DNA from: Phaeodactylibacter xiamenensis | GTDB lineage: Bacteria; Bacteroidota; Bacteroidia; Chitinophagales; Saprospiraceae | Assembly (NCBI RefSeq): GCF_000759025.1 | Contig: NZ_JPOS01000018.1 | Span: 372,001-436,000, forward strand | Direction: 5' to 3' | Length of the DNA stretch: 64,000 bases | Shown: positions 29,874 to 56,997 of the stretch, in pieces | Layout: each line of letters begins with the position of its first letter | Position numbering within the stretch: position 1 is the first letter of the stretch | The notes under the pieces: generated by a model | Seen by the model: the letters and a program-made list of their open reading frames with translations, nothing else | Told to the model about the DNA's origin: nothing | The model's database searches: none | Program-made: the position numbers and the translations under genes

Positions 29874-31802
29874 ATGATTAACATCACTTTCCCGGACGGT
29901 AATGTCCGACAGTACGAAGCTGGCGTAACCGGGCTCGACATCGCAAAGTCGATCAGCCACGGCCTGGCCAAAAAAGTCCTTTCTGCAAAAGTAAACGGTG
30001 AGGTGTGGGATGCCACCCGCCCAATTACCGAAGACGCTACAGTGCAGTTGCTGACGTGGGACGACAAGGACGGGAAAGCGACCTTCTGGCACTCTTCCGC
30101 CCACCTGATGGCTGAAGCCCTGGAGGACATTTATCCAGGCGTGAAGTTCGGTACAGGGCCATCTACAGACGGTGGGTTTTACTATGATGTAGATCCCGGT
30201 GAGCATACCATTTCCAGCGATGACTTCCCTCAGATTGAGCAGAAAATGCTGGAGCTGGCCCGCCAGAAGAATGCCTATGTCCGCAAGCCGATTTCCATAG
30301 AGGATGCCATTGCGTTCTACCAGGAAAAAGGAGACGAATACAAGCTGGAGCTGTTGGAGAAACGCAAGGAAGAAGGCGCGGAAATTACCTTGTACGAGCA
30401 GGGCAATTTCACCGACCTCTGCCGTGGCCCGCACGTGCCCGATACCGGCTACATCAAAGCCATCAAAATCACCAAAGTGGCGGGCGCTTACTGGCAGGGC
30501 GATGAGAACCGTCAGCAGATGACCCGTGTATACGGCATCACCTTCCCCAAGCAGAAGGAGCTGACTGAATACGAAACGATGATTGAGGAAGCCAAGCAGC
30601 GTGACCATCGTAAACTGGGCACAGAGCTTGAGCTTTTCATGTTCTCTGACCGTGTGGGGCAGGGCCTGCCGATGTGGCTGCCCAAGGGCAATCAGCTGCG
30701 CGACCGCCTGATGAATTTCCTGCGGGTAGAGCAGGAGAAGCGCGGCTACCAACTCGTGACCACGCCACATATTGGCAAAAAGGACCTCTACGTGACTTCC
30801 GGCCACTGGGAAAAGTACGGGGAGGACAGCTTCCACCCTATCACTACGCCTAAGGAAGGCGAGGAGTTCCTGCTCAAGCCGATGAATTGCCCGCACCACT
30901 GTGAGATTTTTGGGCACCGTCCGCACTCCTACCGCGATCTGCCGCTCCGTATTGCAGAGTTTGGCACGGTCTATCGCTACGAGCAGAGCGGTGAGCTGCA
31001 CGGCCTTTCACGCGTACGCGGGTTTACGCAGGATGATGCCCATATTTTTTGTACGCCGGATCAGCTCAAGGACGAGTTTCTGAACGTGCTTGACCTGACC
31101 AAGACGGTACTTTCTAAGATGGGGTTTGCTGATTTTACAGCGCAAATTTCCCTGCGTGACCCGGAGAAGCCTGAAAAGTATATTGGTTCAGACGAAAACT
31201 GGAACAATGCTGAGCGGGCCATTATTGAGGCTACTGCTGAGGCGGGCATGAAGACCACAACCGAGCTGGGCGAAGCAGCTTTCTATGGCCCTAAACTTGA
31301 CTTCATGGTCAAGGATGCGCTCGGGCGTTCCTGGCAGCTGGGTACTATTCAGGTAGACTACAACCTGCCCGAACGCTTTGAGCTGGAGTACATCGGCTCC
31401 GACAATCAGGCACACCGGCCGGTAATGATCCACCGGGCGCCTTTTGGTTCTATGGAGCGCTTCATCAGTATACTGATTGAGCATACCGGCGGTAAGTTTC
31501 CGCTGTGGCTCGCACCGGAGCAATACACCATCCTGCCCATTAGCGACCGCTTCAATGACTACGCGGCTGAGATCGAGCAGGAACTGGCGAAGTATGACAT
31601 CCGCGGCACGGTGGATGACCGCAGTGAGAAAGTGGGCCGGAAAATCCGGGACGCCGAGGTGAAGAAAGTGCCCTTCATGCTCATCGTAGGTGAGAAGGAG
31701 GCAGAGACAGGTGCTGTATCCGTGCGGAAGCAGGGCGATGGTGATGTCGGCTCCATGTCTGTCGCTGAGTTCGCAAAGTACTTCCAGGAGCATCTGTACT
31801 AA
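29874..31802 (+). CDS. thrS: Threonyl-tRNA synthetase
   Basis: This 642-residue class II aminoacyl-tRNA synthetase has all domains in order. These are the TGS domain (1-60), the editing/SAD domain (about 65-225, with [13 protein letters not shown] and [11 protein letters not shown]), the catalytic core (about 240-530) and the C-terminal anticodon-binding domain (535-640). Zinc-binding Cys/His are in [10 protein letters not shown]; motif 2 is [14 protein letters not shown] and motif 3 [11 protein letters not shown]. It charges tRNA-Thr and corrects mischarged Ser-tRNA. Length is typical. A palindromic repeat begins 2 bp after the stop codon. Confidence 0.97.
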
Positions 31803-31803
31803 A

Positions 31804-31909
31804 TATACTGACGATTAAGTGGTTTGCCACAGCAAACCTACTCAATGTCAGCATTTACGCTGGGAAGTGGCCTGCTGCGATGTCGCAAACCACTTCGTAT
31901 TGCGTATAA
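31804..31909. repeat. Palindromic repeat family, copy 1 (106 bp)
   Basis: It begins TATACTGACGATTAAGTGG and ends CACTTCGTATTGCGTATAA. The ends are inverted: AGTGGTTTGC on the left, GCAAACCACT on the right, plus TATAC/GTATA at the tips. An internal CACAGCAAACC lets the left end fold on itself. The first ~65 bp match copy 2 with only a few differences. It starts 2 bp after thrS. Confidence 0.8.
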
Positions 31910-32164
31910 CATAGATCGTTCCTCCCCGGCTGAAGTACTGTCTTCAGCCGGGCGGGCGGTCAGAAATGCCGGAAACACGGCAAAAGCTTTAAAATTACTT
32001 TAATCCCGGACTGCCGGCTGAACTTGCAGGCGCTGATTTCGGTTTATTGTGTAAAGCATAAACAAATTAAGCGATTTTAACATATCGCTTGAATTTTAAT
32101 AGATTTTCGCTTATTTTTATCAAAATCGACTTTTATCCCGACGCACGTTTAGAAATCCCACGAT
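31910..32164. other. AT-rich region before the mini T9SS cargo gene
   Basis: Apart from the hairpin at 31925, no gene is seen. The last 120 bp are strongly AT-rich (about 32040-32140) and should hold the promoter of the gene at 32165, but no clean TAnnTTTG box was found. Confidence 0.4.
31925..31952. terminator. Perfect 11-bp hairpin downstream of thrS
   Basis: CCCGGCTGAAG (31925-31935) pairs exactly with CTTCAGCCGGG (31942-31952) across a 6-nt loop. No T run follows. It is a very stable RNA stem and the likely 3' boundary of the thrS transcript, or another small repeat. Confidence 0.5.
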
Positions 32165-32515
32165 ATGAAGCATACTTTACCCCTGCTGTTTTTACTGTTA
32201 GCCACCTTTAGCCTCTCTGCCTCGACCGGTCTGGAAAATAATATTGAGCCATTTCCTCCCTACACAGTAGCGTCTACCCCTGCAGATTTGAAAGTCTATC
32301 CTAATCCCGCAGTGGACTATATCAGCCTTACTGAGGCGCAAGGCGTTACAGAAATCACCGTTTTTAACCTTGTTGGGCGTGCGATGAAGCGCTTCCAACT
32401 CGATTATGCCAAGCAGCAGTTCTATGTTGGGGATTTGCCAAAAGGCATGTACCTCGTACAGATCAAGGGTTCAAACGATAACGTACTGACTACTCAGCGG
32501 CTCCATAAGCAGTAA
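32165..32515 (+). CDS. Mini T9SS cargo protein: signal peptide plus sorting domain only
   Basis: This 116-residue protein has a Sec signal peptide (about 1-20, MKHTLPLLFLLLATFSLSAS). A ~20-residue spacer follows, then a complete type A sorting domain: LKVYPNPAVDYISL, a beta strand with GRAMKRFQL, LPKGMYLVQIKG and a C-terminal TTQRLHKQ. No separate functional domain exists, unlike normal cargo of several hundred residues. It may be a small surface protein, a decoy or competitor for the secretion machinery, or a remnant of a larger cargo gene. It is a free-standing gene with its own upstream AT-rich region and a terminator hairpin. Confidence 0.82.
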   Translation: MKHTLPLLFLLLATFSLSASTGLENNIEPFPPYTVASTPADLKVYPNPAVDYISLTEAQGVTEITVFNLVGRAMKRFQLDYAKQQFYVGDLPKGMYLVQIKGSNDNVLTTQRLHKQ

Positions 32516-32537
32516 CACTTACATCCTGCCACCTTCC

Positions 32538-32575
32538 AAAGCACAGCCGTTATAAATACGCAGCTGTGCTTTGTT
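32538..32575 (+). terminator. Terminator hairpin after the mini cargo gene
   Basis: AAAGCACAGC (32538-32547) pairs perfectly with GCTGTGCTTT (32563-32572). The paired A and T tracts flank the stem, as in bidirectional terminators. Confidence 0.7.
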
Positions 32576-32793
32576 ATACTGACGATTTAGTGGTTTGCCA
32601 CAGCAAACCTACTCAATATCAGTATTTACGCTGGGAAGTGGCTTGCGCTTGCCCTGATAAGCTATGCTTCGTCACGGGCCGATGTCACAAATCCAAGATT
32701 CCAGACGATGAATGTCTGGATCCAAGACCCGACATTTATCGTTCCCCGTGCTGGCCGTCAGCGCCAGTAGGTGACCACTTCTTATTGCGTATA
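32575..32793. repeat. Palindromic repeat family, copy 2 (219 bp)
   Basis: It starts TATACTGACGATTTAGTGG and ends CCACTTCTTATTGCGTATA. The first ~65 bp match copy 1, including TTTGCCACAGCAAACC and ATTTACGCTGGGAAGTGG. The interior carries about 110 extra bases with their own inverted repeat CCAGAC/GTCTGG. It ends 3 bp before the stop codon of the SNF2 gene. Confidence 0.8.
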
Positions 32794-32796
32794 TTT

Positions 32797-35700
32797 TCAG
32801 GCCTCTCCTTTGAGCAAACTCAGCATATCATCCACTGACAGCTTGGCGCTTACATCCGTTCCCGAGAGGAGCTGATCCGCCAGTTCGCGCTTGTTTTGGT
32901 GTAGCTGTACGATCTTTTCCTCAATGGTGTCTTCACTGACGAAGCGGTAAACGGTCACCGGGCGCTGCTGCCCCATACGGTGGGCACGGTCGCTTGCCTG
33001 ATCTTCCACGGCGGGGTTCCACCAGGGATCGAGGTGGAGGACGTAATCGGCTTCCGTAAGGTTGAGGCCTGTGCCCCCGGCCTTAAGGCTGATGAGGAAG
33101 AGCTGACCCTCTCCGTTTTGGAACGCCTGCACAGCTTCTTCCCGTTTTTTGCCCGGTGTCTGCCCATCGAGGTATTGATAGGGAATACCCTGTGCCTTGA
33201 CCCACTGCTCTACGATGCGCAAGTGTTTCACAAACTGGCTAAACACCAACGCTTTATGCCCGCTGTCGAGCAATTCCAGGATGGTCTCTCCCACAAGGTC
33301 GAGTTTGGAACTGGGCACCCGGCTGTCGGGCATCACGAGACGGGGATGGCAGGCCGCCTGCCGGAGCTTGGTGAGCTGCGCCAGGATGGCAAACCGTTTG
33401 GATGCGCCATCTGCAGCTTCCACAACCTCCAATGCACTGCGGCGTATGGCTTCGTAGAAGGAGTGCTCCGATTCGGTAAGGGAAACCGAGAGGATAATTT
33501 CCGTTTTAGCCGGCAGCTCGGTAAGTACGTCCCGCTTGTGGCGGCGCAAAATAAAGGGCTGAATCAACCGCCGGAGCTGTTCCCGGCGCGGCTCGTCTCC
33601 CCTGCTGATCGGGTTAGTGAACTTTTCGTTGAAGCGTTTCTGTGAACCCAGTAAGCCGGGGTTGAGAAAGCGGAACAGGTTCCAGAGTTCACCCAGGTGG
33701 TTCTCAATAGGCGTACCAGTGGTAGCCAGCCGGAAGTCTGCCCGGAGCTCCATCGCAATTTTTGAGCGCTTGGTGGCGGCATTTTTGATGGCCTGGGCTT
33801 CATCCAGGACAAGTGAGCCAAAGGATTTTCGCGTCAGCGCTTCTTCTACAAAAGGCAGCAAGCCGTAGCTAATAATGAGCAAGTCGCCGGGCCCAACCTC
33901 GTCGATGAGGTCCACTTCTTTGCTGTTGCCCAGTAGCTTTGGCGTCAGGTCAGGAGCAAAACGCGCGGTCTCCCTTACCCAGTTGCGGGTAACGGAAGCC
34001 GGTGCGATGACCAGTCCGGGCCCTTCCTCCTTGCGCGCTGAGAGCATAGCCAGTGCTTGTACGGTCTTACCCAGGCCCATGTCATCAGCCAGGCAGCCGC
34101 CGACACCCCATTCCGCCAGCCGCATCATCCACCGGAAACCTTCCTTCTGATAAGCGCGCAGATCGGCCTGAAAAGTATTGGGCACCCGCGGACGGATGCG
34201 CTGTGCCTGTTGGATGCGCTGCATGCTTTTAGCCCAGCTCTGATCGGCTTCCAGCTCCGCCAGCTCCCCGGCGAGTTCATCAATGCGGAGCCCGGCCAGT
34301 GGGTTGAGCTCGTATTGTTGCCCCCGCATTTGGAGCAAACCGTCCAGTTCGCGAAGGCGCTCCCTGAAAGTTTCGGTAAGGGCGATGAAAGTCCCTTCGC
34401 CGAGTTCAACAAATGGGCTGTCGTCTTCGCGGACGTGGTCCAGGAGTTGCTGGAATTGCAGGATTTCTTCTTCGTCCAGCTTCAGGCTGCCATCCACAGC
34501 AAACCAGTTGGACTCCTCCTGAATGCGTACCGACAACTGATCGGTATTGGAAATGCCCAGCAGCTTGACCTTTTCCCCCTTAGGGAATTCCATTTTGATG
34601 CGGCCGGCTTCCCGAAGAGGGTGTAGCTCAAGAAGGATTTGCAGGCAAGCTCGTGTGTCTTCGATTTGCCATTCGTAGCTCTGAGCAGGTTGCTCTGCCA
34701 GCGTAGGGCAAGCTTCAATAACTTCTGCCGCCAGTGCCCGCTCTTTGTCGAGCCGGCGCTCGCAGGCTACCCGTCCTTCTTTTGTACTTAGGATGCGCAT
34801 AGACAGCCCTTCGCCCGGTTTGAAGTAGTGGGCTTCCTCCTTAAGTGGTTTGACATAAAATTCGAGCTTAAAGCCTTCGCCGAAAGGCAGGAGATGCAGG
34901 CAGGGCATGGGGTCACCGGGCACGGATTCCAGCCCCTCCTCCAGCATGGTTTTAGGGGATTGCACCTGTATGCGCCCCTGCAGCTGTTTAGTGATCCGCT
35001 CCATCTGTGGGCGGGCTTCTTCCGGCATCAGTGCTCCGCGGCCAATAAGTTTGGCGACCTTCCGCTCTTCGTCATTCAGCTTGTAGATCCGATACCGGGT
35101 TGGGGTTTCCTTCTCTGTGACGTAGGTGCCGGATTTGGTTACAGGACGGAAGTTGACGCGCAGTTGGTCGCCTTCTTCTGTGATCAGCAGCTCTGGCTTG
35201 GAGCGGACGAGTTCAACCGGGATTTCGTTCTTGCCTTCCAGAAAAACAAAAGGGTGGTTGGTCAGTTGGTACAGGGCGTGGTCGAAGTCCAGGCGAAGGT
35301 CGTCGGGCCCATAGTAAAACATGGGGTTGGAACGATTGTCATAAGCGGAGGTAACGGCATCAAGTACGCGTTGGTCTTCCTCGGTCAGGTTATCGACTTT
35401 GCCCTCGTAGAGATCGTTGATGGTGACTTTTCGGCCAGCCGACCAGCTGTTGCGCTTGCTGCGCTTTTGCTCTTTGGGCTGCAGTTCCCGTTTTTCGAAA
35501 TCCACAAACCAGACCAGGCGGGTGCTGCCGGGCGGGTAGTGGTTGTCGCTGGCCCCATTGCTTAGTGCGTCGAGGGAGTTGAGGATGCGCTCCCATGCCG
35601 ATTGGCGGGGCAGCAATTGTATGAGGTATTGGAAGCCCATTTCATCCTGATAGTAGCGGGCGAGGACTTCCCACTCGCGGCGTTTGGGGTGATCAGGGAA

Positions 35701-56945: not shown

Positions 56946-56997
56946 TATACTGACGATTAAGTGGTTTGCCACAGCAAACCACTTTGTTAAGCGTATA
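56946..56997. repeat. Palindromic repeat family, copy 3 (52 bp, no interior)
   Basis: TATACTGACGATTAAGTGG and the following TTTGCCACAGCAAACC match copy 1. The right end AGCGTATAA closes the palindrome directly, so the whole element is one hairpin: AGTGGTTTGC pairs with GCAAACCACT around CACA. Confidence 0.8.

Follow-up and report, generated by a model that had tools for sequence, protein, structure and literature searches.

Two similar palindromic sequences stand 666 nt apart in the 64,000-nt window, by which we mean the whole stretch of Phaeodactylibacter xiamenensis DNA analysed here, and they raise the question of whether they are copies of a mobile element and, if so, of what kind. A first-pass annotation had suggested a mobile palindromic family of the REP or MITE kind, with fixed ends and a variable interior, and its description of the two copies stands up to measurement. 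They have a common start, a block of 72 nt matching at 94% and beginning TATACTGACGATT, and a common end, a 3′ block of 20 nt, ACCACTTCKTATTGCGTATA, matching at 95%. Copy 1 (31804..31908, plus strand) is 105 nt long, within a base or so of the estimate, and copy 2 (32575..32793, plus strand), at 219 nt, carries 114 extra bases, close to the 110 reported, with hairpins of their own in the fold. Each abuts the end of a gene, as had also been noticed: copy 1 begins 1 nt past the stop of an ORF ending at 31802, which the annotation and we take to be thrS, and copy 2 ends 3 nt ahead of the stop (32797-32799) of what is presumably an SNF2-type gene. If transcribed, the element would place a stable branched hairpin near gene ends. 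When up to 3 mismatches are allowed, a 24-nt pattern of the start has three matches in the window compared to none in 100 shuffles, the third being copy 3 (56946..56997, plus strand), a minimal form of 52 nt with a single hairpin. When 4227 Rfam models were compared with positions 31000-33500, the one match had E = 1, fell below the gathering score and lay outside the copies.

Dispersed copies and insertion at TA

The genome from which the window comes (G000) is a 7.87-Mb draft in 164 contigs, and the relatives in the genus with which we compared it (G001-G005) are drafts in 60-870 contigs. Searching it for the two tips, as the annotation had advised, gives 64 matches to the 13-nt 5′ tip (up to 1 mismatch) compared to 6 for a reversed-pattern control, and 58 matches to the 3′ tip (up to 2 mismatches) compared to 0. 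Sixty two-ended, hairpin-rich copies of 52-403 nt, in 19 architectures, are dispersed over the genome, which disposes of the possibility, raised at the outset, that it holds only three. The commonest lengths are 105 nt (16 copies), 136 nt (9), 219 nt (5) and 157 nt (4). The total comprises 57 copies found by rule and three clear ones that we added (L005, L061, L087); hits with both ends were merged ahead of counting if nested in a shorter one or if overlapping loci gave them repeatedly, a false pairing of ends (L078, 388 nt) was left out, and the diverged or truncated copies L088, L180, L182 and L183 are excluded from the counts. A further 51 two-ended copies, in 23 architectures, were found in other records, a number that includes the doubtful L135 (G002, 440 nt) and L110, from a contig labelled Trichodesmium.

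Some of the places set aside deserve description. L182 and L183 (G000:C30:36301, C31:3075 and 4908) are diverged relatives (TAATACCGACGATTGAGAGGCTTGC..) with near-identical flanks at three places, and L180 (G000:C83:395090) is a copy with module W (see below), without the usual 3′ end, that lies between near-identical repeats starting GGCGTATTTCACTAATTTTGAGGGA. L094 and L096 (G000:C37, C97) belong to another repeat, with 143 nt in common at 90%, whose end, CCACTTCRTATGGCKTATA, is similar to the 3′ end of the element.

Matches to the element occur in every one of the six genomes of the genus; of 150 genomes sampled from the family, 2 carry it, both of them Phaeodactylibacter. A 20-nt start pattern (up to 3 mismatches) has 84, 2, 8, 33, 31 and 33 matches in G000 to G005, respectively, with 0-5 for each control; 22 of the 33 in G005 are a sibling family, described below, and not the main element. 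Scanning named genomes with the start pattern gave at least 26 stretches, and among those listed 23 are Phaeodactylibacter records or the unclassified MAG bin.35. Also among the matches listed are one on the Trichodesmium-labelled contig (L110) and two on Flavobacteriales CC_bin18 (L113, L120). L110 and L120 are real copies, the latter running off its contig, and L113 is a start fused to other sequence. None of these contigs has an alignment longer than 260 nt with the loci of this study, and they may reflect either mis-binning or spread between taxa.

The ends of the element are inverted repeats, TATAC..AAGTGGTTTGC and GCAAACCACTT..GTATA. The 28-nt arms of copy 1 are complementary at 75%: TATAC/GTATA and AAGTGGTTTGC/GCAAACCACTT pair exactly and the intervening 8 nt are mismatched. 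Sites empty of the element are found in relatives for both window copies, that of copy 1, by thrS, in G004 (CTAAA-TA-ACATAG) and that of copy 2 in both G004 and G003 (TTTGT-TA-TTTTCA); the junction of copy 1 in G003 is too diverged to be read. We extended this to 20 of 44 G000 copies for which no shared site was known, joining their flanks over one TA and searching G003, G004 and G001. For twelve of these sites, one or more of the three relatives have continuous sequence across the site and lack the element, with TA at the junction in one or more of them for 11 of the 12; the other eight gave a partial match or none, with no spanning. The site of L042 is TT in its only clear relative, that of L051 is TA in G004 and GA in G003, that of L028 has one extra base beside TA, and that of L032 has repeated surroundings that match several paralogous places. 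Since the empty sites of copies 1 and 2 and 11 of the 12 further ones show TA, the element inserts at TA.

The copies are biased towards the spaces between genes. By a simple, indeed crude, ORF caller, 5 of 59 copies (with the false pairing L078 among the unclassifiable) lie within a predicted ORF, compared to 2412 of the 2715 TA dinucleotides of the window, and four of the five ORFs are of 91-131 aa. The 49 classified intergenic copies lie between co-directional (30), divergent (13) or convergent (6) genes, with 5 more unclassifiable. A preference for convergent genes was considered and rejected, these proportions being close to those of the window TA sites between ORFs (17 convergent, 90 divergent, 196 co-directional). 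Between co-directional genes the element shows no clear strand preference (17 versus 13). The element is probably a genomic parasite without a fixed role, and its intergenic placement suits a parasite surviving where harm is small. At one place (L092, G000:C75:135510) a lone 3′ end sits inside the arms of an apparent transcription terminator (GAAGCCCGTCGG..CCGGCGGGGCTTC, followed by a T-run).

A probable miniature transposon and its putative mover

The reading that we favour, and consider likely, is that of a non-autonomous element of the MITE kind, moved by a trans-acting transposase, inserting at TA and having nodes that accept hairpins. Many short, non-coding, dispersed copies, terminal inverted repeats and an apparent TA target site duplication are all found, as in MITEs. 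The transposase supplied in trans would recognise the imperfect inverted ends (TATAC../..GTATA) and insert the element at a TA dinucleotide, leaving TA on either side of it. The TA target, which is that of IS630/Tc1-mariner transposases, suggests that the enzyme would be a DDE transposase of that type.

In another possible reading the element is moved in single-stranded form by a transposase of the Y1/HUH class (IS200/IS605 or RAYT), which inserts it beside TA without a true duplication. End hairpins are a hallmark of elements moved by these enzymes, the present element has hairpins at both ends, three Y1 genes are present in the genome, and the filled TA[..]TA sites are compatible with insertion beside TA, as such sites alone cannot separate it from TA duplication. 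However, the outermost 5 nt of the element are inverted repeats (TATAC/GTATA), and no element ends, only short matches at chance level, lie within 1.5 kb of any of the three Y1 genes on either side, so that a RAYT link was rejected. Moreover, the copies are of 52-403 nt, compared to the 20-40 bp palindrome of REPs, and their ends lack the GTAG or CGTC tag. We therefore think movement by a Y1/HUH enzyme unlikely, and of the two kinds that the annotation had named, REP falls and MITE is retained.

For the MITE-kind element no transposase gene with matching ends was found in G000. The annotation had recommended looking for such a gene, of RAYT or other type, and in this draft genome we looked with PF13358 and PF01797, which gave ten DDE_3 loci in addition to the Y1 genes. 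Three multi-copy types of DDE_3 end in CTAGTG and not in the ends of the element, so that an IS630-type link to these elements was also rejected, and the tenth locus lies at a contig edge, where its ends are undefined. No long autonomous copy was seen when the G000 tips without a partner within 1.5 kb (loci L031-L096) were read; the unpartnered tips look truncated, diverged or accidental, and no pair of ends was seen to enclose a transposase. Possibly the mover is absent, lies in an assembly gap or belongs to another family. One of the Y1 genes (L123, G000:C54, 37625-37969) has hairpin-rich repeats on both sides, about 310 bp apart by eye (CCGCACCTACGGCGCGG..GCCCCTAATGGGGC), and is possibly half of a RAYT/repeat pair of another kind.

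Hairpin modules and their change at shared sites

The 52-nt form of the element is one hairpin and the 105-nt form two, H1 and H2. In copy 1 these lie at 31808..31851 (H1, CTGAC..GTTTGC CACA GCAAAC..GTCAG) and 31856..31906 (H2), both on the plus strand, H2 having the plan ACGC..AAGTGGCTTGC..GCAAACCACTT..GCGT. Longer copies carry additional hairpin modules at up to four nodes. The loop of H1 takes W, the 3′ strand near the H1 base takes X1, X2 or X3, the loop of H2 takes Y, and the H2 3′ strand takes Z. For instance, copy 2 has a Y hairpin (GCCCTGATAAGCTATGCTTCGTCACGGGC) inside its H2 loop at 32651..32679 (plus strand), present in the fold and matched elsewhere in the genome, and a Z hairpin, CCAGACGATGAATGTCTGG, at 32701..32719 (plus strand), also with genome matches. 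These are followed by a copy of the Z hairpin core that has one mismatch and runs the opposite way (32731..32743, minus strand) and by the CTGGC..GCCAG hairpin of the long Z form (32751..32767, plus strand), the latter read from the sequence and overlapped by one stem of the copy 2 fold. Y occurs as 0-5 units and Z as 0-5 units plus two endings, singly or grown into tandem arrays, with up to five tandem Y units in L070 and up to five tandem Z units in L086. By counts that rest on regular expressions, 20 of the 60 G000 copies have no module, and Y is present in 33, Z in 20, X in 15 and W in none; for the 51 copies of other records the corresponding numbers are 19, 24, 16, 20 and 11.

The folds are far more stable than those of shuffled sequences, with z from -5.3 to -6.6 for RNA folds of copy 1 (-5.3), copy 2 on both strands and the 403-nt copy, and for the DNA fold of copy 3 (-6.6). 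Pairing is kept across copies in 90% of cells for H1 (54 distinct rows, 18 pairs) and 87% for H2 (44 distinct rows, 11 pairs), with two-sided changes at 2 and 3 pairs, respectively; the H1 rows include copies with a module at the H1 base, which adds mismatches there, as well as the L078 start and a misplaced L160. Only 2 (H1) and 0 (H2) of 500 shuffles reach these paired fractions, and none in either case reaches the number of two-sided changes. Examples of covariation are a change from T-A (21) to C-G (11) in H1 and from G-C (41) to T-A (3) in H2.

The comparison of sites occupied in more than one genome goes beyond what the annotation had forecast. Eleven insertions can be linked on both flanks between genomes, ten of them between G000 and either G003 or G004 and one between G003 and G004. 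The modules are equal at four (L055/L208, L066/L121, L009/L212, L214/L048) and differ at seven (L204/L031, L205/L069, L225/L195, L049/L140, L057/L201, L072/L198, L073/L200). For L205/L069 the left flanks match over no more than 33 nt, and the orthology of L073/L200 is less certain because G000 holds two other loci similar to L073 (L075, L077). An apparent twelfth site, L005/L136, with equal modules by eye, stands outside this count. Several of the differing pairs have private end mutations in common (GTGTA; AATAC..GTAAA; CATATTGCGTAAA), which argues that the outer ends have not been replaced, and since flanks and ends are kept while the hairpin content differs, modules change in place. Such change may come about by recombination or gene conversion between dispersed copies, together with replication slippage and template switching. 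One G000 copy of 199 nt has the left flank of one G004 copy (55 nt, 100%) and the right flank of the next (400 nt, 96%), as expected if two copies had recombined, and its modules are in neither of the two G004 copies.

The H1 hairpin of L214 (G003) has a right arm that is an exact reverse complement of its left arm. The changes in that left arm are found also in the G000 ortholog L048, the right arm of which is the usual one. DNA template switching would best explain this correction. Covarying pairs in bacterial repeats therefore need not mean a functional RNA, as an arm has here been renewed as its partner's complement, and template switching in DNA would give the same pattern.

This bears on whether the element is a structured RNA or regulatory element under selection for a cellular role, as its very stable folds, some covarying pairs and intergenic position could suggest. 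We consider this highly improbable, as insertions are present or absent between close species, orientation to genes is unbiased, the interior modules of a single site are variable, copies 1 and 2 have no Rfam match, and the family genomes that carry the element, two in 150, are both of this genus. In addition, one H2 pair is a C-A mismatch in 34 of the 44 distinct rows, and, as the corrected arm of L214 makes clear, selection is not needed for pairing to be renewed.

That the variable interior is largely a gap-closing artefact of short-read drafts, with the wrong repeat interior placed, is scarcely credible: though the window genome is in 164 contigs (Illumina, if the strain is KD52; PMC4263839), the relatives in 60-870, and some copies have common blocks longer than 72 nt and 20 nt, the same module types recur across independently assembled genomes, and the contig names of G003 (bin.35) carry k141, which is longer than the 72-nt and 20-nt blocks common to copies 1 and 2. 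Some interiors could nevertheless be mis-joined, as all genomes used are drafts.

Known relatives and modules in other repeats

The element is a new, unusually modular relative of known miniature transposons, found mainly in Phaeodactylibacter, and a search of the open-licence literature gave no publication on this family. Correia/NEMIS elements have a TA target, and their interiors, like those of RUP, are simple or shortened by deletion and are not known to be exchanged hairpins. In published descriptions both resemble the present element in being short and non-coding with inverted ends, and in being thought to be moved by IS transposases, the ends of pneumococcal RUP being IS630-Spn1-like (PMC3049150).

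The closest analogues appear to be BOX and BrickBuilt. BOX of Streptococcus pneumoniae is described (Croucher 2011, PMC3049150) as having fixed, inverted ends, a variable number of inner modules, a length of 67-637 bp, a duplication on insertion, a stable predicted RNA fold and length differences between strains at the same site, and is thought to be parasitic. Compared by description, the present element is alike in its fixed and inverted ends, variable inner modules, stable fold and same-site length change, and it too has fixed outer modules around a tandem inner one, Y and Z each reaching 5 units. However, BOX as described there has one repeated inner module (boxB), whereas here several types occupy four nodes and may be absent, tandem or replaced. 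The BrickBuilt MITE of Porphyromonas gingivalis (PMC4596501), also from the Bacteroidota, is described as always intergenic, with leader and tail ends around an inner tandem array, but that array is of one 23-nt repeat and not a choice of hairpins at fixed nodes. A similar nesting is described in Anabaena variabilis (Di Nocera 2013, PMC3733652), where GTAG-15 REP dimers lie inside TATAGGA..TCCTATA palindromes, and the same paper names CGTC-tagged palindromes in Bacteroidetes. The likeness is that of small palindromes within a larger one ending in TA; unlike those dimers, the present element has no GTAG or CGTC end tag or linked RAYT. What the element adds is that the gain, loss, multiplication and exchange of hairpins inside a mobile element can be followed in nature, by comparing sister species at the same insertion sites, and in this way the spread of small palindromes (REPs, BOX modules) becomes a testable question.

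Also outside the annotation's forecast, the modules are common to other repeats. The Z hairpin has 47 matches in G000 (up to 2 mismatches), 16 of them outside the element. Apart from one on C34, the outside matches belong to two other inverted-repeat families or to a repeat array on contig C80, with one more at a single place. Both families are roughly 190-215 nt long, one with ends AGACTATG..CATAGTCT (L186, L187, L189, L190, L192) and the other with ends AGACTGTGTTGGG..CCCAACACAGTCT (L178, L185, L188, L191). The Y hairpin has 54 matches in G000, ten of them outside the element and its diverged relatives, and three of the ten lie in decayed copies within a tandem tRNA-Gly array.

A similar picture emerges for the sibling family, TATACCGACGACGAAGTAGT..GAGTATA, which is found in G005 and G004 (L293-L312) and has no match in the window. 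It has the same two-hairpin plan as the main element and two of the same nodes, with most of the sequence different. Fifteen of the 20 places examined are two-ended by pattern, seven as plain two-hairpin copies of 104-105 nt and eight with added hairpins, which occupy the loop of H1 (CCCCGATAGCTATCGGGG, sometimes as tandem units), a place near its base (CCTGCCCGACATGCAAAGGCAGGCGGG) or the H1-H2 junction. The folds of two copies have z of -5.0 and -4.6.

Z occurs in three inverted-repeat families and an array, relatives of Y are found where tRNA-Gly copies have decayed, and the sibling accepts other hairpins at nodes equivalent to those of the main element. Conceivably, then, the modules are themselves very small mobile units, about 20-35 nt long, for which the loops and stem bases of other palindromes are places to settle, a suggestion that we put forward only tentatively and with some doubt. 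If true, this would be a nested system, in which large palindromes are landing sites for small ones.

The tRNA array itself (L193, G000:C79:136800-138400) consists of tandem tRNA-Gly(GCC) genes, two of them intact and three decayed, and the tRNA body of the decayed copies contains hairpins, among them TCCCGATAACTATCGGGA and CCCGACAAGC..GCTTCGTCGGG.
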